This document shows, one piece after another, positions 44,841-62,665 of a stretch of 64,000 nucleotides of DNA (positions are counted from its first letter, which is position 1; the number at the start of each line of letters is the position of its first letter). The stretch comes from Phycisphaerae bacterium (GTDB lineage Bacteria > Planctomycetota > Phycisphaerae > Phycisphaerales > SM1A02), in assembly GCA_002709295.1 (NCBI GenBank), contig PAQL01000009.1, forward strand, positions 1 through 64,000, read 5' to 3'. Under the pieces are notes generated by a model that saw only the letters and a list, made by a program, of their open reading frames with translations, did not search any database and was not told where the DNA came from. Made by a program: the position numbers and the translations under genes.

Positions 44841-45842
44841 TGGATGTCGGTCCCGCGGTGCTCGGTCCACGGGTTCGATGATCGACACCCGGACCGATTC
44901 GACCACGCCTCCCGCCTCGGCCATCGCCTCGTCGCCGACGCCCAGAAACAGATCGATCCGCCGCTCCCTGATCGCTCCACCGGTGTCGACCGCCATCGCG
45001 ATCATCACCTCGCCGTCGGCTCGATCGACCCTGACCATGCTGCCCAGAGGGATGATCTTCGGGTCGACCGCTACCGAGTGTCGAGGGATCAGCCTCACAC
45101 CGGTCGAGGCCTCCGGCCAGCGATCGGCGGGGATCTCCCGGAAGTAGACGACGCGGTCGTTGTCGAGCATCAGGGACTCGACGAGCAGGGGGTCCATGCG
45201 ATGGAGTCCTCGAATGGTCCCGAGATCCAGTCCCTCGGCGGCGGCGTGACCCTCCTCGATCAGTCGACGACCCAGACTGGTGTAGGGACGTTCGTTGGTC
45301 CGCACCCAGTCCAGGCACATCAGATCACCTTCAGGGGTTCTCAGGGCGACCGAACCGTTGACCTCGGCGAGGTACGCATCGAGACCGTTCGCGACCCAGC
45401 CGATGACCGGAGGTCGCAGGTCCGGATCGGCGGCATACTCGCTCCGGGTCGGCAGCTCGGATGCCGGGATCGAATCGGGCGGGGAGGCCATGATCGGATG
45501 TCGATGGATCTCGTCGGCGACCGGGACCGCCTCGAGAACCGGCGCCGCGTACGCGGTCGCCTCGAATCGGCCGGGAATCTCTCGGAACCCGACGCCCGGC
45601 GGGTTCGGTTCCAGAAGAGCCCGGAATGGATGCGTCTCATGCCAGCTGCGCCAGCGTTCCGCGGACCGGTCTGCGCTTCGTTCCAGTACGAGGATCGAAT
45701 CCGACATCGCTCGGTCCAGCCGATCGTTCTCCGAGGGTGACGTGCAGCCGAGCAGGAGCATGGAGGCCAGCACGACAGTCAGACGCGAACGGCCGGGCCG
45801 GTTCGAATCGTCGACTGCCATCTCGTGCATCGGGGAGCTCAC
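44244..45842 (-). CDS. Lipoprotein with 3D/MltA-type domain; C-terminal third antisense to the ABC permease
   Basis: LLLGCTSPS lipobox; GLDLGTIRGLHRMDPLLVESLMLDNDRVVYFRE, PLGSMVRVDRADGEVMIAMAVDTGGAIRERRIDLFLGVGDEAMAEAG; domain ends near 44860, ORF continues to 44244. Confidence 0.75.
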   Translation of the reverse strand: MSSPMHEMAVDDSNRPGRSRLTVVLASMLLLGCTSPSENDRLDRAMSDSILVLERSADRSAERWRSWHETHPFRALLEPNPPGVGFREIPGRFEATAYAAPVLEAVPVADEIHRHPIMASPPDSIPASELPTRSEYAADPDLRPPVIGWVANGLDAYLAEVNGSVALRTPEGDLMCLDWVRTNERPYTSLGRRLIEEGHAAAEGLDLGTIRGLHRMDPLLVESLMLDNDRVVYFREIPADRWPEASTGVRLIPRHSVAVDPKIIPLGSMVRVDRADGEVMIAMAVDTGGAIRERRIDLFLGVGDEAMAEAGGVVESVRVSIIEPVDRAPRDRHPSSDQQVLDHGDRAGQHDSSDRGHRDGDADQDHDLGAEDESDPETGGSDEVHGLDLDRTDADGEREYHDHQQQGRHRHDPEHRHEDPSNPKDLDQKPVHDLGRPNQLHRKQSGIRPPHQDGLRTFVVGHEDRRGHRAILPLAVEVEARPVLIGDLDELAHLGTDDHDVVGPTHHQFGIGLLVDLVVSVGETLHDPGGGR

Positions 45843-47140
45843 CGGGAGGGCCGTCGCTTCTCACGGATGCCCGCCGCCCCACGGGCCAGATCTCCCAGAC
45901 TCCGGCCGGGGCCGGGGCCGGGGCTGGGTCCGGGGTCGGGCCCGGCGAGGGCGGAGAGGCGTGCGGCCGCGCTCATGGGAGAGATCAGGGCACCGGCGGC
46001 ATCGGCCAGACGCACGCACTCGAGCAGGTCCGAGGGAGATCGCTGCGTCTCCTCGTGATTGACCAGCATGGGGTTCTCCTGGCGGCCGTCGAGCCAGGAG
46101 AGGAAGGACAGCCCCGTCTTGTAGAAGCGGGTGGGATCCTTGAAGATCGCCTGCCCGAGCCGTTCGCAAGGAGCCATGATCCGGTCGTAGCCCTCCCGGT
46201 CGCCGGCGGCCAGACGGCGAAGCGCCAGGGAGGCGGGGTCGGCGATCGCATCGAACACGCCGAGAAGGGCATGACTGAAATCGCCCAGGGGCACCTCGCG
46301 ACCGTCGAACTCCGTGGTCCGGCGGACCTCGGCGACGCCGTCATCCTCTCCGGCGATCAGTCGGCCGAAGTGGAAGTCGTCGCCGGTCAGCATGATCTGG
46401 TCGCGCTCGAGCAGATCGCGGCGGAGGTCCACCTCGAGCCGGTGGTCGAGCATCGAGAGCTTGGCGGCGCGATAGCGCTGGGGATCGTTCCGCATGATCC
46501 GGAGAAAGGAATCACCGGGGAAGTATCCCTCGAGGCTCGGCAGGAACATCGGGCCGAGCCAGTGGACGATCAACGGACCCTCGCCCGCTTCCCGGGCGAT
46601 GTCCGCATACACCTGCACGTAGCCGTCCTCGTCGATACCGAGTTCGCAGAGTCGTGGAATGGGAAGGATCACCGCCACGCCTCCGGCCCGACGGATGACG
46701 TCGATCTGTTCGACCACTCCGTCGACTATCCGCGAGGTCGTCTCCACGGTCTCCAGATGATCGGTGCCGGCTCCGGCGCAGAAGCCCGCCTCGAGGCCGA
46801 GTCCGCCGGTGAGTTCGATCAGGCGTCTGGCGGCCGTCCAGCCGAGGTTGAAACGCTGGGCGGTGTCCATCGCTTCGGCGATGCCCATGCCGGTTCCGCC
46901 GATGCCGCGTCGGATCGCCATCGTGGCGTCCCAGTCCAGGTGCTCCGCGATCTCCTCCGAAGTTCCCGGGGTCTCGACGGAATGGGGCACCCCGGCGTAC
47001 GACGGCTTCATCACCACGTGAGCGGCGGCGTAGCAGAGGCGGGGAAGCGGGGACCGATGGTCGACGTCCCGCCGAAGATCGCTCCAGCGATCGTCGGTCA
47101 GTTCGATCGGACCGATCCGGGTCTGGACCGTCCTGCTCAT
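45839..47140 (-). CDS. DUF993-type (dihydrodipicolinate-synthase-like) protein
   Basis: Start MSRTVQTRIGPIELTDDRW at 47140; MAIRRGIGGTGMGIAEAMDTAQRF, GLEAGFCAGAGTDHL; recognised as DUF993-like from memory. Confidence 0.7.
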   Translation of the reverse strand: MSRTVQTRIGPIELTDDRWSDLRRDVDHRSPLPRLCYAAAHVVMKPSYAGVPHSVETPGTSEEIAEHLDWDATMAIRRGIGGTGMGIAEAMDTAQRFNLGWTAARRLIELTGGLGLEAGFCAGAGTDHLETVETTSRIVDGVVEQIDVIRRAGGVAVILPIPRLCELGIDEDGYVQVYADIAREAGEGPLIVHWLGPMFLPSLEGYFPGDSFLRIMRNDPQRYRAAKLSMLDHRLEVDLRRDLLERDQIMLTGDDFHFGRLIAGEDDGVAEVRRTTEFDGREVPLGDFSHALLGVFDAIADPASLALRRLAAGDREGYDRIMAPCERLGQAIFKDPTRFYKTGLSFLSWLDGRQENPMLVNHEETQRSPSDLLECVRLADAAGALISPMSAAARLSALAGPDPGPSPGPGPGRSLGDLARGAAGIREKRRPSR

Positions 47141-48522
47141 GATCCGGCATCCGTCGCGGGGAGGATGTCCTCGATGAAGCCGGGGCCGTTCTCGACGACG
47201 AACATGGCGAGGAACACGGTGAGCACCACGGTGGCCAGAAGCATGCCGGAGATCCACCAGGTCGCCAGCGGACCGGTGGGCGTGTCGTCACCGAGGTACG
47301 CACGGTTGCGCTGCAGAAGCGTGAATCCGAGGTAGGAGGCCGGCAGGAAGAGGCCGCAGACGATGTTGGTCGGCACCCCGACCCAGGGGGCGATCTCGGA
47401 CCAGTGGATGGCACCGAGGACGCCGATCGCCGGAAGCAGGATGAACACCTTGTGACCGATCGAGTCCTCGCGGATTCCGAAGAGTTTCACACCGGCGAAA
47501 CCCGAGGCCAGCATCTGCATGGTGATCGAGGACAGCGCCATCGCGAGGATCCCCAGCCCGAAGACCCAGAGGCCGATCACCGGTCCGAGTCGGTCGGGCG
47601 AGGCGAAGATCTCCGCCGCCTTGGCGGGGTGGATCTTCGACCCGGTGAAGCCGGCATCCCCGAAGTGGAACACCGAGGCGCTGGCGATCACCATCAGGCT
47701 GACCGCGATGGTGAACGGGATGAACATGCCGAAGACGAGGTCGTACCTCGCCAGTCGACGTTGGGCGCGTCCCCAGCCGTTCTTGCGGAGGGTGTACGGA
47801 TACACGAAGAGCATGTTCGCACCCACCGCGGCCGCGAGTCCGGAGACGATCAGCGTCGTCGAGGCGATCGAGGTTCCGCCGCCGTCCTCGCCGGGCATGG
47901 TCCAGTCGGCGGGTATCGAGGGAATGAAGCCCTTGAGGATCCCGACCGGATCGTGGATGCCGGACTGGACGACCACGATCGCCATCGCCACCACGATGAA
48001 CCAGACCATGGCGGTCAGGATCACCTCGTAGGTCCGGATGAAGGACCTCGCCCGTCCGTGCAGCAGCCCGACCGAGACGCACCAGATCAGGGCGATCAGC
48101 CCGCCCACCCGGGGATCCACGCCGAAGAGCAGGGCGAGCATCGCGGCCGCGAGGGCGTACTGGGCGAACTGCCAGATGATCGAGCTCAGAAGTCCGCCCC
48201 ACGCGAACGCCCATGCGAAGAACGGACTGGCGTGCCGCTTCAGGGCGTCGTAGGGATCGGAGCCGGTGGACAGGGTCTGCCATGCGATGGCGCTCATCAC
48301 GATGATGCCGAGCAGCATCGCGGTCGGTGCCACCCAGAGCAGCTGGTAGCCGAAGGCCGCGCCGCTGAAGAGGGCGGCGAAGGCGCTGCCCCCGCCCAGC
48401 GTCATCGCGGACTGGAGATACCCGGGGCCCATGTGCCGCAGGTAGCCGGCGATGCGTCCGGGGAGCGGGCGGGCATCGAGTTCCGCGAAGTGCAGGACAT
48501 CATCGGCCTTTGAATCCTTCAT
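47137..48522 (-). CDS. Nramp-like transporter
   Basis: GPGYLQSAMTLGGGSAFAALFSGAAFGYQLLWV, about 11 TM segments, 4-nt overlaps on both sides. Confidence 0.8.
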   Translation of the reverse strand: MKDSKADDVLHFAELDARPLPGRIAGYLRHMGPGYLQSAMTLGGGSAFAALFSGAAFGYQLLWVAPTAMLLGIIVMSAIAWQTLSTGSDPYDALKRHASPFFAWAFAWGGLLSSIIWQFAQYALAAAMLALLFGVDPRVGGLIALIWCVSVGLLHGRARSFIRTYEVILTAMVWFIVVAMAIVVVQSGIHDPVGILKGFIPSIPADWTMPGEDGGGTSIASTTLIVSGLAAAVGANMLFVYPYTLRKNGWGRAQRRLARYDLVFGMFIPFTIAVSLMVIASASVFHFGDAGFTGSKIHPAKAAEIFASPDRLGPVIGLWVFGLGILAMALSSITMQMLASGFAGVKLFGIREDSIGHKVFILLPAIGVLGAIHWSEIAPWVGVPTNIVCGLFLPASYLGFTLLQRNRAYLGDDTPTGPLATWWISGMLLATVVLTVFLAMFVVENGPGFIEDILPATDAGS

Positions 48523-49991
48523 GCTCTGGAGGCCTCCTTGCGCAGGACCTTGAGTTCGACGGCCTGGGGCAACTTCTTGTAGTGCTCGTCGAGGGGATAG
48601 CAGCCCGAGATCATGCCGTTTCGAGGGGCGGTGGTGCAGTCGCTGAAGGTCCGGCAGAGGAACTTGCGCTGCAGTTCACGACCGGCGATCACGTCCGCCG
48701 GCATCGTCGGGTAGGACAGCATCGACCTTCCCAGGCCGACCGAGTCGACCATGCCCGACCGGATCTCGTGCTGGGCGATGAATGGAATCCACTGCTGGAG
48801 GTAGGACCAACCGCTGCCGACCAGGGGCAGCCCGGGCACCAGCGCCTTGATGGTCCGGACGGTCTTGAGGTGACGCTGGACCTCGCAGAGGGGATCGCGT
48901 GGTGGCAGGTAGCCGTCGCTCGGCGGATAGGCGGCGGGTCGCTGAAGGTGCGGGCAGTAGTAGGGGCTGCCGATGGTCAGGTTCGCCATGAAGATGCCGA
49001 GATCGCGGCAGAGCTCGAGAAACGCCTGCGACTCTGTGAAGTCGCTGAGCGTCGGGTCCATGGCATTGACCCCGAAGCCGTGGCGCCACGGCGTGTTCTC
49101 GGCCACGTCCTTCGGATGGCCGATGGCATCGCCTTCCCGGCGGAACATCGGATAGGTGTCGGTGATCGAGACCCGGCACCCGATCATCAGACCGGGTCGT
49201 TCGGAACGAATGGCCTTCACGGTGTCACGGAAGAGCCGGGTCCGGTTTTCGAAGCAACCGCCGTGGTCGCCGGATCGGGTGTGGGCGCCGAGGAGTTCGT
49301 GAAGCAGGTAGCCGTGACAGCATTTGACGTCCACGAAGTCGAATCCGACGTCGGCGGCGAGGCAGGCCGCCTCCACCATGCGGTCGGATATCTCGCGGAG
49401 CTCGCCGTCGGTGAGCACGTGAACCGAGGCGTCGAGTCCGTACTTCATGGAGAGCACGGGGTTGAGTTCCGCGATCCGTGGAATCATGGACGGGCCGTCG
49501 GGACGGCTGAACCTTCCGGAGTGGGTCAGCTGGAGTCCGACCAGCAGATCGTCGGTGGATCCGTGATGTTCCAGGTGGGCGGCACGGAGGGTCGAGAGCA
49601 ACCGGTCGAGGTTCGCGGCATTGTCGACCGAGGGATCGGGATTGAGATGAAGCTGGTTCGGATTCGCCCTTCCGTCCGGTTGCACCGCGTAGGCCTCGCC
49701 GCCCCAGATCAGCTTCGCGCCGCTCTCTCCGAATCTCCGCCATCGGCGGAGGGTGTCGTCGGTCGGGCCGCCCTCGGGGGTGCCGTCCCATCCCTCCATC
49801 GGGTGGACGGTGAATCGGTTGCCGATGGTTCGTTCGCCGCCGTCAGCGCCCGTGACCACGAGCGGATCGGCCATGGGACCACCGGCCCGGATCTCGAGAT
49901 CGCAGTCGAGTTCCCTCTCTTCATCGAGGCCGCACCAGTGGGCGCGGAAGTCCTCGATGGTTCTGAAGCGACCGGGAGGCGGATGATCCAT
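48519..49991 (-). CDS. NADH:flavin oxidoreductase / Old Yellow Enzyme family protein
   Basis: KLIWGGEAYAV, LQLTHSGRFSRPDG, AACLAADVGFDFVDVKCCHGYLLHELLGAHTR, VGLGRSMLSYPTM. Confidence 0.88.
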   Translation of the reverse strand: MDHPPPGRFRTIEDFRAHWCGLDEERELDCDLEIRAGGPMADPLVVTGADGGERTIGNRFTVHPMEGWDGTPEGGPTDDTLRRWRRFGESGAKLIWGGEAYAVQPDGRANPNQLHLNPDPSVDNAANLDRLLSTLRAAHLEHHGSTDDLLVGLQLTHSGRFSRPDGPSMIPRIAELNPVLSMKYGLDASVHVLTDGELREISDRMVEAACLAADVGFDFVDVKCCHGYLLHELLGAHTRSGDHGGCFENRTRLFRDTVKAIRSERPGLMIGCRVSITDTYPMFRREGDAIGHPKDVAENTPWRHGFGVNAMDPTLSDFTESQAFLELCRDLGIFMANLTIGSPYYCPHLQRPAAYPPSDGYLPPRDPLCEVQRHLKTVRTIKALVPGLPLVGSGWSYLQQWIPFIAQHEIRSGMVDSVGLGRSMLSYPTMPADVIAGRELQRKFLCRTFSDCTTAPRNGMISGCYPLDEHYKKLPQAVELKVLRKEASRA

Positions 49992-50302
49992 GTCTTCAGG
50001 TGTCCTGAGGGTTGGGAACTCGTTCCAGATCGAACTCTACCGTCGTCGTCTTCGGACGCCACTCCCGAGCTGCCGGGAAGGACTCCTCTCGGCCGGAGGA
50101 TTGTCGCATGTGCGTGTTCGTGAGGATGATTCGCGGGCTGCGTGGATTCGGCCCGGAATCCTGATCGAGACCCTCGACGATCCTGAAATTCGTCTGGATC
50201 CGACGGCAGGCCAGACTATGATGAGACTTCACCTCGGGTGGAGCCTCCCGGCCCATCCTCTCCGGTACTCCCTCCATCAACAGTCTGAAATCGGAGAAAG
50301 TG

Positions 50303-50977
50303 ATGTCCTGCGACCCATCCCGACTTCGTCGATACCTGGCGCTTTCACTGGTTCCGGGCGCCACGACCGCCGCAGTCGCCGACATCGACTACACCAGCCT
50401 CGATGTCACCGTGGAGCTCGGGTCCACCTTCTCCCTGGAAGTCGCACAGTCCTTCAGCATGGTGTTCAATGCGTTTTCGGCCACCAATTCCACCAAGGAC
50501 ATCGTGGTGCGGCAGCGCGGTTTCAACGCCAAGGGTTCCCCCGGTTCGGCAGTCGACGGCGGCCTCCTGGTCGGCTTCAAGTCCGGTCTTCCCAAGAGCG
50601 TGATCCGCTTCGGGGACGGAGATGAGATCGGTCCGGGAATCGGCGGCATGGAGAGCACCCTCTTCTGGGGCGCCCAGTCCGTGACGGTGTCCAAGACATC
50701 CAAGACCAAGCAGCTGAACGGCGGACCGTTCAACGCAGTGGACGGCCCGCAGGACGGATACCTGGGCTTCGCGTTCGCCGATTTCGGCAGCCAGGACCTG
50801 CACTACGGTTGGTTGTCGCTGTCCTGGGATGGAACTGAACTCACCATCGACGGCTACGCATGGGAGACCGAAGCGGGCGTCTCGATCGACGCGGGCACGA
50901 TTCCCGCGCCCGGGGCGATCGGATTGTTCGGACTCGCCATGGGGGCGGCGGGCATCCGTCGCAAGCGAAGCTTGTGA
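50303..50977 (+). CDS. Short exported protein with PEP-CTERM-like tail (family member A)
   Basis: C-terminus YGWLSLSWDGTELTIDGYAWETEAGVSIDAGTIPAPGAIGLFGLAMGAAGIRRKRSL; RBS GGAG upstream. Confidence 0.85.
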   Translation: MSCDPSRLRRYLALSLVPGATTAAVADIDYTSLDVTVELGSTFSLEVAQSFSMVFNAFSATNSTKDIVVRQRGFNAKGSPGSAVDGGLLVGFKSGLPKSVIRFGDGDEIGPGIGGMESTLFWGAQSVTVSKTSKTKQLNGGPFNAVDGPQDGYLGFAFADFGSQDLHYGWLSLSWDGTELTIDGYAWETEAGVSIDAGTIPAPGAIGLFGLAMGAAGIRRKRSL

Positions 50978-52951: not shown

Positions 52952-53629
52952 ATGAGCAGTTCCAAGCAGCGGATCGATCGCTACGTGTCCGCGGCGACTC
53001 TTCCGGCGATCGCCGCCTGTGGCGCCTCTGTCGCCGTCACAGACATGGCGGAAGCCGAGATCGTCTACGAATCCCTCTCGATCACCATCGGGGGCCCCGG
53101 CAGCGCGCCGTCCCTGACTGCCATCGACATGGGATTTGCCAGCATCAAATTCGCCGCAGGAAGCAACAGCCAGGGTCCCGAAAACCTCATGGGTGCGAAG
53201 GGGAACAACCAGGTCGCGGTGATCGCGGGCGGAAGTTCCAAGCTCCTGCGCAACTTCGGTACCGGAGAAGAGATCGGCCTGAGCGCCGGCAAGCCTGCGA
53301 TCCTGGGAATTGGCGCGAAGTTCAGCACCACGGGCGGCAAGTCCAGCAAGGGAGGCGGCAAGACCACGAGCAAGGGTGCCTGGGCCCCCGGCAATGAGGA
53401 TTCCGTCTCCGGATACATGGGTTTCGCCTGGTTTCCGAATGCTGCCGATGTCAACTACGGCTGGTTCTCCCTGACCTGGGACGGCAGCTTCCTGACGATC
53501 GACGGCTACGCGTACGAGACCGAAGCCGGAGTCGGCATCGAAGCGGGTGCGATTCCTGCTCCCGGAGCCATCGGACTGCTGGGCCTTGCCGCGGGTGCGG
53601 CCGGAATGCGCCGCAAGCGACTGGCCTGA
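52952..53629 (+). CDS. Short exported protein with PEP-CTERM-like tail (family member B)
   Basis: MSSSKQRIDRYVSAATLPAIAACGA...YGWFSLTWDGSFLTIDGYAYETEAGVGIEAGAIPAPGAIGLLGLAAGAAGMRRKRLA; RBS AAGGAGAG. Confidence 0.87.
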   Translation: MSSSKQRIDRYVSAATLPAIAACGASVAVTDMAEAEIVYESLSITIGGPGSAPSLTAIDMGFASIKFAAGSNSQGPENLMGAKGNNQVAVIAGGSSKLLRNFGTGEEIGLSAGKPAILGIGAKFSTTGGKSSKGGGKTTSKGAWAPGNEDSVSGYMGFAWFPNAADVNYGWFSLTWDGSFLTIDGYAYETEAGVGIEAGAIPAPGAIGLLGLAAGAAGMRRKRLA

Positions 53630-53937: not shown

Positions 53938-54624
53938 ATGAATCGAACTGCATCGAGACTGGACCGTTACGTCACGGCCGCGACGATTCCGACCATGGCC
54001 GCGGTCGGTGGCATAGCCGCGCCGGTCGAGTTCGCCTGTGCGGAGATCGTCCATCAGGGGATCTCCCTGACCGTGGGCGGCTCGGGACCGGTCATCGCCT
54101 CCTTCCAGGTGGGCACCTACGGCACCTTCAACGTGTTCGCCGGAAGCACTGCGAGCGGAGGACGATCCTTCGGGATCAGCAACTCGTCCAAGGACAAGGT
54201 GCGGGTCATGAACGACCGCGTGGTCGGTGAGTCCTCGAAGAAGGGGACCACGAACTACATGCATCGCTGGGCGGCGGGCGAGATGGTCCAGATCGAGAGC
54301 AAGAACCAGGATGTTCCTCTGCTCTTCGGCAAGACGGGGATCGGTTCGCTCTCCAATTCATCAGGCATCTACGGCAACTTCGCGACCGGCGGGGAGGGGC
54401 CCCAGTCGGGCTTCATCGGTTTCGGAATCAACAGCGGCAACGGCATCCAGTTCGGCTGGATCTCCGTGACCTGGGACGGGACGCTGCTGACCATCGACGG
54501 CTACGCATACGAGACCGAGGTCCAGACCGCGATCGAGGCCGGGGCGATCCCCGGTCCGGGGGCGATGGGGCTGTTCGGCCTCGCCGGCGGTGCGGCGGGG
54601 ATTCGCCGGAAGCGGAAGGCCTGA
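53938..54624 (+). CDS. Short exported protein with PEP-CTERM-like tail (family member C)
   Basis: MNRTASRLDRYVTAATIPTMAAVGG...FGWISVTWDGTLLTIDGYAYETEVQTAIEAGAIPGPGAMGLFGLAGGAAGIRRKRKA; RBS GGAGGAGG. Confidence 0.87.
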   Translation: MNRTASRLDRYVTAATIPTMAAVGGIAAPVEFACAEIVHQGISLTVGGSGPVIASFQVGTYGTFNVFAGSTASGGRSFGISNSSKDKVRVMNDRVVGESSKKGTTNYMHRWAAGEMVQIESKNQDVPLLFGKTGIGSLSNSSGIYGNFATGGEGPQSGFIGFGINSGNGIQFGWISVTWDGTLLTIDGYAYETEVQTAIEAGAIPGPGAMGLFGLAGGAAGIRRKRKA

Positions 54625-54712: not shown

Positions 54713-56521
54713 ATGTCCATGGCCCGGACCATCCCCGAACTGCTCTTTGCGGATCCCGCTCCGCCCGGCCTCCATGCCGTCACGAAGCTGGGGCGGGACG
54801 ATCGGCCCGAGGTCGTCCTGCGTCGAGGCGAGCTCGTTCAAGAGATCGAACGCCTCGCCCGAATCCTTCACGACGGGGGATTCGCCTCCCGACCAGTGCT
54901 GATCCCCGAGCGCAACGGCATCGAATACGTGGTGGCCTTCCTGGCCTGTCTTCGGGCCGGATGCATGGCGGTCACCGCGCATCCCCCGCGGGCCGGCGGT
55001 GGAGGTGACCGACTGGCCGCGATCGTGCGCAACAGCCGGCCGGCGGCGGTCCTGGCGACCCCCGGCATCATGGAGACGATCGATCGGGTGGCCCCGGCGC
55101 TCCTGGAGGGCGTGCGCCGCATCTCGTACGAAGCGCCCTCGGTGCCCGTGGAGGAGGCCGATGGTCCTCTCGTGGAGCCGGTTCCCGACGAGACGATCCC
55201 CTGGCCCGATCCCGACGACGTCGGTCTTCTTCAATACACCTCCGGTTCGACCCGGGATCCCGCACCGGTGGCGCTCACCCAGGGCAATCTCCTGGCCAAC
55301 GGTCTGGCGATGCGCGATCTCTTCACCCGGGAGGGGCGTCCCGGCGGCACCGTCTGCTGGATGCCGCTCTACCACGACATGGGACTCATCGGTCTCATGA
55401 TCTCGTCGATGCTGGTGAAGATCCCGTTCCACCTGATGGAACCCGAGGCCTTCGCCATGCGTCCGGTCCGGTGGCTCCGCGCGATGTCCAACACCGGTGC
55501 CGCCTACAGCGGGGGGCCGTGTTTCGCCTGGGACCTCTGCGTGGCGCGGACCAGCGAGGAGGATCGTGCGGAACTCGATCTCTCCTCGTGGCGATTCGGC
55601 TTCAACGGCGCCGAACCGATCCGGCCCGGATCCCTGGCGCGATTCCAGGCCGCCTTCGGCCCGCGGGGTTTTCAGGGGATGATGCCGTGCTACGGTCTGG
55701 CCGAGCACACCCTGCTGGTCTCGGTGCGTCGGGAGGATGAACCGATCCGGTACCGGGTCGCGATCCGCAGGGCGCTCGACGAGGGGCGGCTGGAGGTCCG
55801 AAGGACGATCGAGATCGACGAGACGACCGAGGTTAGGATCGCCGAGGACGAGATCGGGGTGGTCTCGTGCGGCCCCGGCATCCCCGGGCACGAGATCGCG
55901 ATCCGCGATCCCGAGACCGGCCGTCGCGCGTTGGAAGGGGAGATCGGGGAGATCACCCTGCGCGGGCCCAGCGTGGCATCCGGCTACCACGAACGCGCGG
56001 ACCTGACCGAGGCCGTCTTCCCCCTCGAGCACGGGGGGGACCATGGGCCCTGGTTGCGCACCGGCGACCTCGGCACGATGTTCGATGGGGATCTCCACGT
56101 GCTCGGCCGGATCAAGGACCTCCTGATCGTGGACGGTCGCAACGTGCACCCGGCGGACGTCGAGGCCTCTCTGGAGTCGGCTCATCCCTCGCTGGCCGGT
56201 GGCAGGGTCGCGGTCTTCGCGACCGGAGACGTCCTCGCCGGTGAAGCGGAGACGATCGGGGTGGTGGTCGAGGTCGGGCGCGACACGCATCGTGCCTGGC
56301 GACGCGACGTCGAGGCCGCGGCGGGCGGGATCGAGGAGATGGAGCAGGCCTTGCGAGCCCTGGCCTCGTCGATCCACGGCATCCGCCTCGCGAGGATCAC
56401 GGTGGTCGCTCCCGGCGGCATTCCGAGAACGACCAGCGGAAAGATCCGCAGGGCCGCGACCCGCATCGCTCTGGAGGAGGGCCGGATCGAGCCCATCGAC
56501 ACGGGGAGCGACTCGTGCTGA
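54713..56521 (+). CDS. Fatty acyl-AMP ligase (FAAL)
   Basis: VGLLQYTSGSTRDPAPVALTQGNLLAN, CWMPLYHDMGLIGLM, RFGFNGAEPIR, MMPCYGLAEHTLLV, WLRTGDLG. Confidence 0.92.
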   Translation: MSMARTIPELLFADPAPPGLHAVTKLGRDDRPEVVLRRGELVQEIERLARILHDGGFASRPVLIPERNGIEYVVAFLACLRAGCMAVTAHPPRAGGGGDRLAAIVRNSRPAAVLATPGIMETIDRVAPALLEGVRRISYEAPSVPVEEADGPLVEPVPDETIPWPDPDDVGLLQYTSGSTRDPAPVALTQGNLLANGLAMRDLFTREGRPGGTVCWMPLYHDMGLIGLMISSMLVKIPFHLMEPEAFAMRPVRWLRAMSNTGAAYSGGPCFAWDLCVARTSEEDRAELDLSSWRFGFNGAEPIRPGSLARFQAAFGPRGFQGMMPCYGLAEHTLLVSVRREDEPIRYRVAIRRALDEGRLEVRRTIEIDETTEVRIAEDEIGVVSCGPGIPGHEIAIRDPETGRRALEGEIGEITLRGPSVASGYHERADLTEAVFPLEHGGDHGPWLRTGDLGTMFDGDLHVLGRIKDLLIVDGRNVHPADVEASLESAHPSLAGGRVAVFATGDVLAGEAETIGVVVEVGRDTHRAWRRDVEAAAGGIEEMEQALRALASSIHGIRLARITVVAPGGIPRTTSGKIRRAATRIALEEGRIEPIDTGSDSC

Positions 56522-57783
56522 TCTTCCGATCCGAGATCCGAGGGACCAGAGTGGTCGAGATCGACGAGCTCGTCGCTCGTGGGGCCAGGGGTCCGGCGGG
56601 TCGTCCGGTGCTCTTCCTGCGCGATGCCGGGGAGGCGGAAGTCGCGTTGCATTCACCGGTCTTCGATCGGGGGCGTCTGGCACGATCGTTCGGGGGAAAC
56701 GGGATCCTCTTCTCCGATGGCGCCCACTGGAAGGAACGTCGACGCATCATCCAGCCGGCTTTTCCGCCGCGGGAACCCGATTTTCATCTTCAGGACGTGA
56801 CCTGGGCGGTACCGGGACTGGTCTCGAGATTCGCGGCGGCCGCGGAGTCGGACGAGTCGGTGGGTGTGGTGGAGGAGACGGTTCGATTCACCACCCGGGT
56901 CCTCTACAGAGGCGTGTTCGGTCAGGATCTGCCCTCCGATCACGACCGGGTGGGAGTGATCCTCGATTTCTTCGATTCGATCGGTGGCGTCCTGTCCTCC
57001 ACGATCTTTCCCAGGCTGCGTCTGGACGGTCGCACCATGGCCGAGGTCCGCAGGGCGGCCGAGGCGATGGAGGAGGAGGTGAACCGACTCGTGGAGGTGC
57101 GAAGAAACAGTGATTTCACATCGGACCGGGTGGACGCCCTCGGCGAGATCGTCGAGGCCCTCGACGCGAAGGATGATGTCCGGGGCATCCACGACGAGGT
57201 TCGGAGTCTCCTGGTGGCTGGAGCCGAGACGACTTCGAACACTCTGGGATTCCTCCTGTTGATGCTGGCGGGGCATCCGGAGGTCGGCGATCGACTTCAC
57301 GAGGAGATCGTTGCTGCACCCGATGGCGATTCGCCGTTCATGGATGCGGTGATCTTCGAGACCCTGCGACTGTTCCCGCCGGTCTGGTTCCAGACCCGTG
57401 AGGCGCTGGAGTCCATCGAGATCGGGGAGACGCCGCTGGAGAAGGACGACCTGGTGTTCGTCGCGACGGCCCTGATCCACCGCGACCCCGCGATCTGGGA
57501 GGAGCCCGACGCCTTCCGTCCCGAACGGTTCCTGCCCGGTCCCGACGGCCCCTGGCGTCCCCCTCACCGCTACGCCTTCTTCCCCTTCGGGGGCGGCCGG
57601 CACCTCTGCATCGGTCGCCATCTCGCGATGCACGAGTTGCAACGTTCGATCCGGGCCCTGGCCGGCCGCTTCCGTTTCGAGATCGAGTCCGATGTGGAGG
57701 TCGCGGCCGAACTCGGGGTCGTGCTCAAGCCCGCCCGCGACGTCCGGGTCCGGGTGTTCGAACGAGGGGGGGATCGACCATGA
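56515..57783 (+). CDS. Cytochrome P450 (first)
   Basis: I-helix LLVAGAETTSNTL, ExxR FETLRLFPP, heme loop FFPFGGGRHLCIGRHLA; overlaps FAAL by 7 nt. Confidence 0.95.
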   Translation: MLIFRSEIRGTRVVEIDELVARGARGPAGRPVLFLRDAGEAEVALHSPVFDRGRLARSFGGNGILFSDGAHWKERRRIIQPAFPPREPDFHLQDVTWAVPGLVSRFAAAAESDESVGVVEETVRFTTRVLYRGVFGQDLPSDHDRVGVILDFFDSIGGVLSSTIFPRLRLDGRTMAEVRRAAEAMEEEVNRLVEVRRNSDFTSDRVDALGEIVEALDAKDDVRGIHDEVRSLLVAGAETTSNTLGFLLLMLAGHPEVGDRLHEEIVAAPDGDSPFMDAVIFETLRLFPPVWFQTREALESIEIGETPLEKDDLVFVATALIHRDPAIWEEPDAFRPERFLPGPDGPWRPPHRYAFFPFGGGRHLCIGRHLAMHELQRSIRALAGRFRFEIESDVEVAAELGVVLKPARDVRVRVFERGGDRP

Positions 57784-59015
57784 GGTCGACCGTGGTTCCG
57801 CAGCTGCTGGAGGTCCATGGGACCGACCCGCGGCCGGAGGGCCCCGGGCGCCGGATCCTGCTGAGGGATCCCGACGAGGTGGGAGCCATCCTTCATTCGA
57901 ATCGATTCCAGCGCACCGACTTCGTTCGTCAGCTGTCCGGCGACGGTCTCCTGGCGACCGACGGGGATCTCTGGCGGGAGCGGAGGCGCATCGTTCAGAA
58001 GTCGTTCCCGGTGCGTGATGTCGAGGCGCACCTCGACAGCATCCGACTGGCCCTGCCCGGTTTCGTGGAGCGTCTCGGGGAGGCGGCGGACGAGGATCGA
58101 CCGGTCTGTCTGCTCGATGAGATGATGCGGGTGGTGAGCAGGGTCGTCTACCGGGCGGTGTTCGGCGTCGAACTCGGACGCGACGAGGACCGGGTCTCGA
58201 TCTTCCAGCCCATGATGGAGGCGGTCGGCGACGTGCACTGGTCGCTGGTGGCTCCCGGAGGGACCGTCGACGCCGGATCCCTGGTGAGACTGAAGCGGAC
58301 CCGCGACGCGGCGGATGTCGAGATCACCCGGATGGTGGAACGACGTCGCGCCGTGGACATCGGCATCGACGATGCGCTGGGTCGCCTGATCCGAGCAAGG
58401 GACGAGGGCCTGGTCGACGACGTCGCCATCCACGACGAGGTCCGCTCCCTGGTCCTCGCATCGACCGAGACCAGTGTGAACAGCCTCATCTGGGCGTTCC
58501 TCCTGATTGATGATCGTCCGGAGATCCTCGCCCGGATCGAACGTGACCTGGACGCCGGTGGCGGCGACGAGATCATCGACAAGGTGATCTGGGAGACGTT
58601 GCGTCTCTATCCGCCGGTCTGGGCGAACGAAAGACAGGCCATCGAACCGGTGGACGAGGCGGGGCGATCATGGGAGAAGGGCGATCGGGCGGTGATCTCC
58701 GCGTATCGGCTGCATCGGGACCCGCGTCAGTGGGAGGATCCCGACGCGTTCCGCATCGAGCGATTCGAGGGACTGGCCGAGCGCCGCTGGCAGCCGCCGC
58801 ACCGTTTCGCCTACATGCCCTTCGGGGCCGGACCGCATCTCTGCATCGGCCGGAATCTGGCTCTGATCGAGATGCGGTGGATCATGCGCGAGGTTCATTC
58901 ACGATTCAGAATCGATTTCGATGACCCCGATTCGATCGAACCGATACTGGGGATCGTGATGAGGCCTTCTGCTCCGGTCATGGTCCGCATCACGAGACGC
59001 GATCGGAAGCACTGA
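57780..59015 (+). CDS. Cytochrome P450 (second)
   Basis: I-helix LVLASTETSVNSL, ExxR WETLRLYPP, heme loop YMPFGAGPHLCIGRNLA; ATGA overlap with first P450. Confidence 0.95.
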   Translation: MRSTVVPQLLEVHGTDPRPEGPGRRILLRDPDEVGAILHSNRFQRTDFVRQLSGDGLLATDGDLWRERRRIVQKSFPVRDVEAHLDSIRLALPGFVERLGEAADEDRPVCLLDEMMRVVSRVVYRAVFGVELGRDEDRVSIFQPMMEAVGDVHWSLVAPGGTVDAGSLVRLKRTRDAADVEITRMVERRRAVDIGIDDALGRLIRARDEGLVDDVAIHDEVRSLVLASTETSVNSLIWAFLLIDDRPEILARIERDLDAGGGDEIIDKVIWETLRLYPPVWANERQAIEPVDEAGRSWEKGDRAVISAYRLHRDPRQWEDPDAFRIERFEGLAERRWQPPHRFAYMPFGAGPHLCIGRNLALIEMRWIMREVHSRFRIDFDDPDSIEPILGIVMRPSAPVMVRITRRDRKH

Positions 59016-59054
59016 TCTAGTCGCCTGAAGCGAAGCTTTGGAAGGGATCCTCCG

Positions 59055-59297
59055 GTGCCAGACATGACCAGCGACGACATTGCGAAGTGGATTCGAACCC
59101 GGATCGCCGCCGACATCGACAAGGATCCCTCCGAGGTGGACCCCGAGGTCACCTTCGATCGCATCGGGATCGACTCGCTGGCCCTGCTCGGGGTTCTCGG
59201 GGATCTCGCGGGGGAGCTGGACATCGAGATCGAGACCAGCGTGCTCTTCGATCACCCCACGATCGCGTCGCTCTCCAGCCATTTCGGATCGGGTTGA
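59055..59297 (+). CDS. Acyl carrier protein
   Basis: 80 aa; phosphopantetheine site FDRIGIDSLALLGVLGDLAGEL, LFDHPTIASLSSHF. Confidence 0.92.
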   Translation: MPDMTSDDIAKWIRTRIAADIDKDPSEVDPEVTFDRIGIDSLALLGVLGDLAGELDIEIETSVLFDHPTIASLSSHFGSG

Positions 59298-60300: not shown

Positions 60301-61566
60301 ATGGCCGTCCTTGTCGTGTCCCGTGGGGTCCTGAGCGACGGTGACGGAGGTCCGTCCTCGAACCGGACGGTTCGTCTGGCCGGCACTTCGCATCCCGGCG
60401 TCTCGTCGCTTGCCTCCACGATCTCGACCGGTGACTGGCCCGAGGTCCATGGGGTGATCGGTCAGCATCAGCCCCATGTCGACCGTCTCGGGTACGAGAT
60501 CCCGCGGCCCGAACGAGCCACCGGAGGGTCGATCTGGTCGGCGGCCGCCGCTTCGGGGCGACACGTGGCGATCGGCAACTGGCCGCATGGCTGGCTCCGG
60601 CCGGAGCTCGACGGGAGTGGTCGACATGATCGAATCGAGCCTCGGGCGATCGACGGACTGGCCGGGGAGGCCCCCGCGTCGTGTCCTCCCGGGGCGGTGG
60701 AGCCGAAGACGGTGGAGGACTCGCTGCGCGGACACGGGGGAGCCGACCGGATCGAACTGAACTGCGCCGCGATCGAGGTGCTCGCCGACGAGGGCCCGGA
60801 CCTGATGCTGGGCTGGATCTCCTCGATTTCCGGGGACATCGGGGAGCGACGGGCCCGCATCGAGGGGATCAGGACGCGCCTCGGCGAGGCCGCCGGAAGC
60901 GAGGCGACCATGGTGGTGCTGGAACATCCACCCGTCGAATCAACGATCTTCCGGCAACCCTTGAGGAATCCTCCTCCTCTTCTTCATGTGTTCGGTCCTC
61001 GAGTGATCACGATCAAGGGCCGGCCTCGTGTGGATGTGATCCCCGCGCTGGTCGCCGAGGCGATCGGCGTCGATCCGAAGTCGTCCCGTTTCCGGGTCGA
61101 CCCACCCTCGGGCGGGGTGGAGCGGCTTCAGGCCGCAGGTCTGCCCGGTCCAAATCGCATCTCGGCCTTCGACCTGAAGCAGTACGAGTTCGAACGCAGT
61201 CGGGAGATCGCCGCCTCCCTGATCGCGCGGGGTCGATGGGCGGAGGCGGAGCCCTGGTTGTCGTCGTCGATCCAGACCCAGCACGGAAGGATCGACGTCG
61301 CAAGCCTCGTCCTGCTTCTGATCCGGATCCGCCGGGCCCGTGGGGCGCAGGAGGCGGACCGGCTGCTGGCCAGCGTGAGGGAACGACTTTCGCCGGTTCT
61401 CGGAGACCTGATCGATGCATGGCTCGCCGGTCGAGGTGGGGAGGTGATCGGCGAAGGAGGGACCGAGGTGCTGCGCAACCTCGGGCCGTTCCTCGCGGAA
61501 TCGCTTCTGGTGGACCTGCGGCGTCGAGGGAGGTTGCCGCTGCCCGAGGATGGTCGATCCGGATGA
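60301..61566 (+). CDS. Alkaline-phosphatase-superfamily / type I phosphodiesterase-like protein (divergent)
   Basis: AGTSHPGVSSLASTISTGDWPEVHGVIGQHQP resembles the PF01663 nucleophile region; helical C-terminal repeat. Confidence 0.5.
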   Translation: MAVLVVSRGVLSDGDGGPSSNRTVRLAGTSHPGVSSLASTISTGDWPEVHGVIGQHQPHVDRLGYEIPRPERATGGSIWSAAAASGRHVAIGNWPHGWLRPELDGSGRHDRIEPRAIDGLAGEAPASCPPGAVEPKTVEDSLRGHGGADRIELNCAAIEVLADEGPDLMLGWISSISGDIGERRARIEGIRTRLGEAAGSEATMVVLEHPPVESTIFRQPLRNPPPLLHVFGPRVITIKGRPRVDVIPALVAEAIGVDPKSSRFRVDPPSGGVERLQAAGLPGPNRISAFDLKQYEFERSREIAASLIARGRWAEAEPWLSSSIQTQHGRIDVASLVLLLIRIRRARGAQEADRLLASVRERLSPVLGDLIDAWLAGRGGEVIGEGGTEVLRNLGPFLAESLLVDLRRRGRLPLPEDGRSG

Positions 61567-61870: not shown

Positions 61871-62665
61871 ATGAATCGTACGAACAGGCTGTCCACGTAT
61901 GTCGGTGCCGCCACCGCGGCCGCGATCGGTGCGACCATGGGCACGGAAGTGACCGCGGACACGATCGTCTTCGACGTCGGCGTGACCTACGGAGGTGGAT
62001 GGGTGCCCGGCAGCGGCGGCACCTCGTGGTCCTCGTCGCATCTCGACACCGCCGGCCTGATGCAGATGGATGCCCTCGGCGCCCAGATGCTCTTCATCGG
62101 AAATGGCTTCAGGTCCGCATGGAACTCCTCGAGCGGTGGTCCCTTCACCGGCAACTACAGGGCCATGGGTTGGGCTCTCGGCTCCGGTACGAACTTCAAC
62201 AACAGCAAGAGCGAGTCGGGTGAGCAGGGACGGCTTCAGGTCGCCTTCACCTTCAACGGCATGGGTTTCGGCAAGGGAAGCAAGAGCAAGAATGTTCGTG
62301 GATTCGGTGCCGGTGAGAATGTCGATTCCATGAACAAGTTCATGCCGGGTGGTTTCGCCGGGAGCTCGTACTTCACTTCGTCGAGCGGATCCGTCAGCTC
62401 GGGTGAGAAGGGACTCGCCGCGGGGCGTCACTTCATCGGCTTCCGGGTCGTCGAGGACTGGTCTGCCGAGGAACTGGCCTTCAACTACGGATGGGTCGAT
62501 CTCTCGTTCGACTATGAAGCCGGCACGCTGACCGTTCACCGATGGGCCTACGAGACCGATGTCAATACCGCGGCTTCGACCCCGGTGGTGCCCGGTCCCG
62601 GCGGACTCTTCGCCCTCGCCCTCGGCGCTGCGGGCATCCGTGGTCGCCGGCAGCGGGTCGCCTGA
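61871..62665 (+). CDS. Short exported protein with PEP-CTERM-like tail (family member D)
   Basis: MNRTNRLSTYVGAATAAAIGATMG...YGWVDLSFDYEAGTLTVHRWAYETDVNTAASTPVVPGPGGLFALALGAAGIRGRRQRVA; RBS GGAGAG. Confidence 0.85.
   Translation: MNRTNRLSTYVGAATAAAIGATMGTEVTADTIVFDVGVTYGGGWVPGSGGTSWSSSHLDTAGLMQMDALGAQMLFIGNGFRSAWNSSSGGPFTGNYRAMGWALGSGTNFNNSKSESGEQGRLQVAFTFNGMGFGKGSKSKNVRGFGAGENVDSMNKFMPGGFAGSSYFTSSSGSVSSGEKGLAAGRHFIGFRVVEDWSAEELAFNYGWVDLSFDYEAGTLTVHRWAYETDVNTAASTPVVPGPGGLFALALGAAGIRGRRQRVA

Follow-up and report, generated by a model that had tools for sequence, protein, structure and literature searches.

A six-gene FAAL-P450-ACP cassette in Phycisphaerae is an accessory island that may oxidise fatty acids on a dedicated carrier protein

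Cassettes of the jamABC/polyyne type combine a FAAL, desaturases, an ACP, a thioesterase and a rubredoxin, and the bacterial polyyne clusters include those of protegencin, caryoynencin, cepacin and collimonin (PMC8406139). In some actinobacterial polyyne clusters, a P450 gene replaces the thioesterase and rubredoxin genes, and these clusters still belong to the desaturase-bearing polyyne clade (PMC8406139). The locus described here lies in a window of 64,000 nt (the whole stretch of DNA analyzed). As in jamABC and the polyyne clusters, a dedicated FAAL and a free-standing ACP stand in one cluster, and the oxidizing enzymes are predicted to work on the carrier-bound chain with no need for elongation. 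On the other hand, the known cassettes use membrane desaturases (JamB type) with rubredoxin, whereas the two genes between the FAAL and the ACP of the window are P450s by Pfam. The window cassette also differs by having no thioesterase, by carrying a tandem GNAT and an AlkP-like/TPR-like protein, and by an altered P-loop in the FAAL. None of its six proteins matched a desaturase family. Since no desaturase is present, the cassette is not a member of the jamABC/polyyne group, but by analogy it may work as a P450 version of it. A first-pass annotation of this DNA had already drawn the jamABC analogy, with P450s in place of the desaturase and the usual FAAL/ACP loading logic, and these points stand. 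P450BioI (CYP107H1) is another bacterial P450 acting on an ACP-held acyl chain, although it uses the fatty-acid-synthase ACP and no FAAL.

Table 1. Genes of the cassette and their positions in the window.
Product	Position	Strand	Remarks
FAAL, 602 aa	54713..56521	+	Pfam AMP-binding, 2.6e-50
Cytochrome P450a, 422 aa, GTG start	56515..57783	+	Pfam p450, 5.5e-54
Cytochrome P450b, 411 aa, ATG start	57780..59015	+	Pfam p450, 4.3e-45
Free-standing ACP, 80 aa from GTG	59055..59297	+	Pfam PP-binding, 2.4e-14
Tandem-GNAT protein, 307 aa	59328..60251	-	Convergent with ACP; Pfam Acetyltransf_1 (threshold E 0.001)
AlkP/type I phosphodiesterase-like domain with helical, TPR-like C-terminus	60301..61566	+	Weak Pfam match

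The FAAL and P450a genes overlap by 7 nt and the two P450 genes by 4 nt (ATGA), and both overlaps are also present in the loci of relatives. Coordinates and Pfam matches agree with the four same-strand genes of the first-pass annotation (Table 1), and the arrangement of these four is not due to chance, since the identical order recurs in relatives. The ACP has an intact phosphopantetheine site (GIDSL, with the serine at Ser41), as had been noted. The ATG at 59064, the ACP start common to relatives, is likelier than the GTG at 59055. The catalytic motifs of the FAAL, both P450s and the ACP are complete, except for a degenerate P-loop in the FAAL. Purifying selection is evident on all genes of the cassette except the ACP, which has too few sites; dN/dS in these five is from 0.08 to 0.35, lowest in the FAAL (0.08-0.16) and 0.15-0.30 in the P450s.

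A close FAAL (67-70% identity to that of the window) was found in 8 of the 181 genomes of the family, namely the genome of the window and seven genomes from a second genus. The AlkP-like/TPR-like protein occurs in exactly those eight and a tandem-GNAT homologue in the same eight plus G132. These are not counts of independent events, since most loci with this layout (type I) have a common ancestry and location. On every contig of sufficient length, FAAL, P450a, P450b and ACP are followed by the GNAT gene (on the opposite strand) and the AlkP-like gene, in this order. In G578, all six genes stand between other flanking genes (L069), in a different genomic context, and the site corresponding to that of the window contains an RND permease, three PEP-CTERM-like genes and an enolase-like gene, with no cassette. 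The same-genus genome G523 also has no cassette at this site, where the RND permease and the enolase-like gene are separated by one small ORF; the two same-genus genomes that lack the cassette are 85% and 91% complete. Because G578 holds the block elsewhere and both G578 and G523 show a cassette-free site, the six genes are an accessory insertion, an island that covers roughly 7 kb (54.7-61.6 kb). No convincing terminal repeats or recombination sites were found at its ends. The genes travel together, as the first-pass annotation requires: they co-occur in relatives, and the block is present at two different genomic positions. The unit of four genes previously proposed is ruled out by this shared occurrence and by the cassette-free site, and two more genes, up to 61566, have to be added, among them a candidate release enzyme, the tandem GNAT.

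Between the two genera, the cassette proteins are 41 to 71% identical, versus about 90-92% for RpoB. A horizontal transfer of the G578 copy may be suggested by the P450 trees compared with RpoB, but the concatenated tree gives only 74/73.

The PEP-CTERM-like neighbours were also considered as parts of the system and discarded, since G578 has them at its cassette-free site but not beside its cassette. These small paralogous secreted proteins (window 50300-50977, 52952-53629, 53938-54624 and 61871-62665) are common to relatives and vary in number. At 45839-49991 of the window, there is a conserved block of three overlapping genes encoding a DUF993 protein, an Nramp-like transporter and an FMN oxidoreductase of the old yellow enzyme type.

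Two other layouts were found in relatives. Type II (genera g14 and g10) is represented in G592 (L067) by FAAL-P450-P450-ACP(-)-P450c(-)-thioesterase(+), in G069 (L028) by the same layout minus one P450, and in G132 by a locus divided between two contigs (L029, L036). In type III, from G015 and G338 (L032, L071), the order is P450-FAAL-[ACP-thioesterase]; a P450-FAAL pair is at a contig edge in G318, and the type III layout recurs on a named metagenome-assembled contig (L120), with a P450, a FAAL and an ACP-bearing gene. A FAAL profile scan of named genomes gave only distant FAALs (33-40% identity), with a P450 within 10 kb in 3 of 80, one of these having the type III layout. Judging from the predicted gene products, the constant core of the three types is FAAL, P450 and ACP, and it is the release enzyme that varies; the thioesterases of types II and III are shared with the polyyne clusters.

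The G132 variant locus (L036 5018-11727) contains an ACP, a GNAT(-), an AlkP-like gene(+), a FAAL(-), a c/d-clade P450(+) and an ORF(-) without Pfam match, with the GNAT adjoining the ACP and three PEP-CTERM-like paralogues nearby. Just upstream of this ACP (L036 1855-4812) is a gene for a 985-aa protein in which a type I phosphodiesterase domain is joined to TPR repeats and to a C-terminus resembling sulfotransferases.

We suggest that the FAAL would adenylate a free fatty acid and move the acyl group to the phosphopantetheine arm on Ser41 of the ACP, where P450a and P450b would oxidize the bound chain, probably in two different steps. The redox partner would be encoded elsewhere, none being found within the six-gene cassette. 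The tandem GNAT would then transfer the oxidized acyl group from the ACP to an amine or hydroxyl, filling the role that the thioesterase has in types II and III. For the loading-plus-oxidation core of this scheme, we estimate a probability of roughly 0.55. The loading of the ACP would follow from the family membership of the FAAL, and the action of the P450s on the ACP-bound chain appears somewhat more likely than not because all three architectures keep P450s with a FAAL and an ACP. Release by the GNAT is a more tentative proposal, less likely than not, and derives from its position and co-occurrence and not from its family, since its place in type I is taken by a thioesterase in types II and III.

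The AlphaFold2 model of the GNAT protein (mean pLDDT 81, pTM 0.68) has two predicted GNAT domains in one chain, as in tandem GNAT proteins. Foldseek retrieved the tandem GNATs 7q3a (TM 0.68), 2wpw, 5kgh and 2c27, and the nearest folds are VipF, MAB_4324, the tandem GNAT of the clavulanate pathway, glucosamine N-acetyltransferase and mycothiol synthase. These closest folds belong to CoA-dependent tandem GNATs, a point against the proposed release from the ACP. In the C-terminal domain, the CoA pyrophosphate loop RxxGxG/A is not conserved and reads RLDPLQ. The AlkP-like protein is probably devoid of the usual metal ligands, and its AlphaFold2 model (pLDDT 52) was excluded as fold evidence. Both genes could be mere neighbours with another job.

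As in the cassette, a GNAT-fold protein lies beside an ACP and near PEP-CTERM-like genes in FeeM-type synthases and the stieleriacine cluster (PMC7293339). It is conceivable that the GNAT receives its acyl group straight from the FAAL and ACP to give an N-acyl product, and that the P450s act later, on the acyl amide after its release or on free fatty acid. Such an order would be in line with the stieleriacines, planctomycete N-acyl tyrosines attributed to N-acyl amino acid synthases which cluster with a PEP-CTERM gene (PMC7293339), the window's cassette being likewise among PEP-CTERM-like genes. However, the protein of the cassette, a tandem GNAT, has no matches to FeeM or N-acyl amino acid synthase models (Pfam at E 0.001, where only Acetyltransf_1 was hit, and NCBIfam at E 0.1) or to the acyltransferase/autoinducer synthase models of NCBIfam (E 0.1). 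Moreover, types II and III have P450s beside the FAAL and ACP without the type I GNAT, which indicates that the P450s track the FAAL/ACP pair and not the GNAT. We consider N-acylation before oxidation unlikely, and favour oxidation on the carrier.

The cassette could also resemble jamABC, which supplies the starter of jamaicamide, in preparing an oxidized acyl-ACP as the starter unit of a PKS or NRPS encoded at another locus. FAAL-ACP pairs are the classical loaders of PKS/NRPS lines, and in both g14 genomes (L029 2-6449; L078 5489-12423) a cluster with a KS, a FabA-like protein, an ACP, an ABC-2 transporter and an acyltransferase is found on the contig of the type II cassette. This cluster was not found in the window, and neither the window nor the next 16 kb contains a relative of the g14 KS or anything resembling the nearest KS of the family, in agreement with the lack of a ketosynthase initially reported. 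The dedicated thioesterases of types II and III are a further argument against a starter-unit role, which we regard as rather improbable, and oxidation for release from the ACP itself is preferred.

The first protein of the cassette belongs to the FAALs, as had been claimed: FAAL models rank at the top among stand-alone ligases (NCBIfam), and its best PDB matches are FAALs, spanning residues 32-592. The catalytic Lys577 is retained, within TSGKIRR, in a full-length C-terminal domain. In EcFAAL, the CoA pocket is blocked by W224, M231 and F279, besides a FAAL-specific helix (PMC8460268). The counterparts in the window FAAL are W216, M223 and F271, matched by their equal spacing (7 and 48 residues) and not by structural superposition, and the segment EAFAMRP sits at the place matching the helix. 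The three residues are invariant in A1. What the first-pass annotation missed is the abnormal P-loop. The usual ANL motif TSGSTxxP(K/R)GV, a feature of the superfamily and not specific to FAALs, reads here TSGSTRDPAPV, with the K/R-G pair lost, and the six type I FAALs that were examined all share this sequence. In other FAALs, K/R is present in 114/114 and the next G in 113/114, while type II has TSGSTSxPRAV. The altered type I P-loop could lower or change adenylation. Taken further, the type I protein might be a degenerate ligase or a user of another nucleotide or donor, with the ACP loaded from general fatty acid synthesis. This is improbable, since the other motifs are conserved, including the catalytic lysine, the FAAL has the lowest dN/dS of the cassette and type II keeps the R. 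Loading by the FAAL remains our preferred step.

In P450a, the I-helix has AGAETT, followed by ETLR (E282/R285, P450a numbering) and the heme-Cys loop FGGGRHLCIG; the corresponding motifs of P450b are ASTET, where the Gly of AGxxT is replaced, ETLR and FGAGPHLCIG. Both proteins have the ExxR, the FGxGxxxCxG and the acid-alcohol pair (ET) of the I-helix that characterize functional P450s, and no other P450 was found in the 3.68-Mb genome. Their best PDB sequence matches are chains of a putative P450 (7wzl), P450 BM3, CYP3A, CYP46, CYP120 and CYP175, and no BioI or CYP107 label is among the top-listed ones. A BioI-like route to biotin, with a P450 cutting acyl-ACP to pimeloyl-ACP, has in BioI a precedent for a P450 working on acyl-ACP, but it is very improbable, as the cassette FAAL subfamily occurs in only 11 of the 181 family genomes, two or three P450s plus a GNAT or thioesterase would be superfluous for biotin, and no bio genes were seen nearby.

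In the tree, the type II pair groups with P450a and P450b in a single clade (92/94), from which P450c stands apart. From their sequences, P450a and P450b are anciently diverged paralogues, whose split predates the separation of the two genera. A tandem duplication of P450a was observed in two genomes (L027 1169-4013; L068 5397-7896), resulting in three P450s per cassette; the duplication junction holds the 3' end of the FAAL and the 5' end of P450b.

Among open-access titles and abstracts, we found no equivalent of a FAAL with P450s and an ACP, so the cassette does not appear to be already characterized. At somewhat less than even odds, we propose that these loci form a FAAL-P450-ACP family that follows the jamABC/polyyne logic with P450s in the place of desaturases. 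Its release modules would be exchangeable (tandem GNAT, stand-alone thioesterase or ACP-thioesterase fusion), and its members would be carried on accessory islands and make undescribed oxidized acyl products with no chain elongation. If this is true, it would be a very small system, with a FAAL, an ACP, two P450s and one release enzyme, oxidizing unactivated fatty acids on a dedicated carrier outside the modular PKS/NRPS lines. The variants found in nature, which have two or three P450s and differ in their release enzymes, would offer a built-in comparison of the step taken by each P450 and of how P450s recognize acyl-ACP, a question known mostly from BioI.
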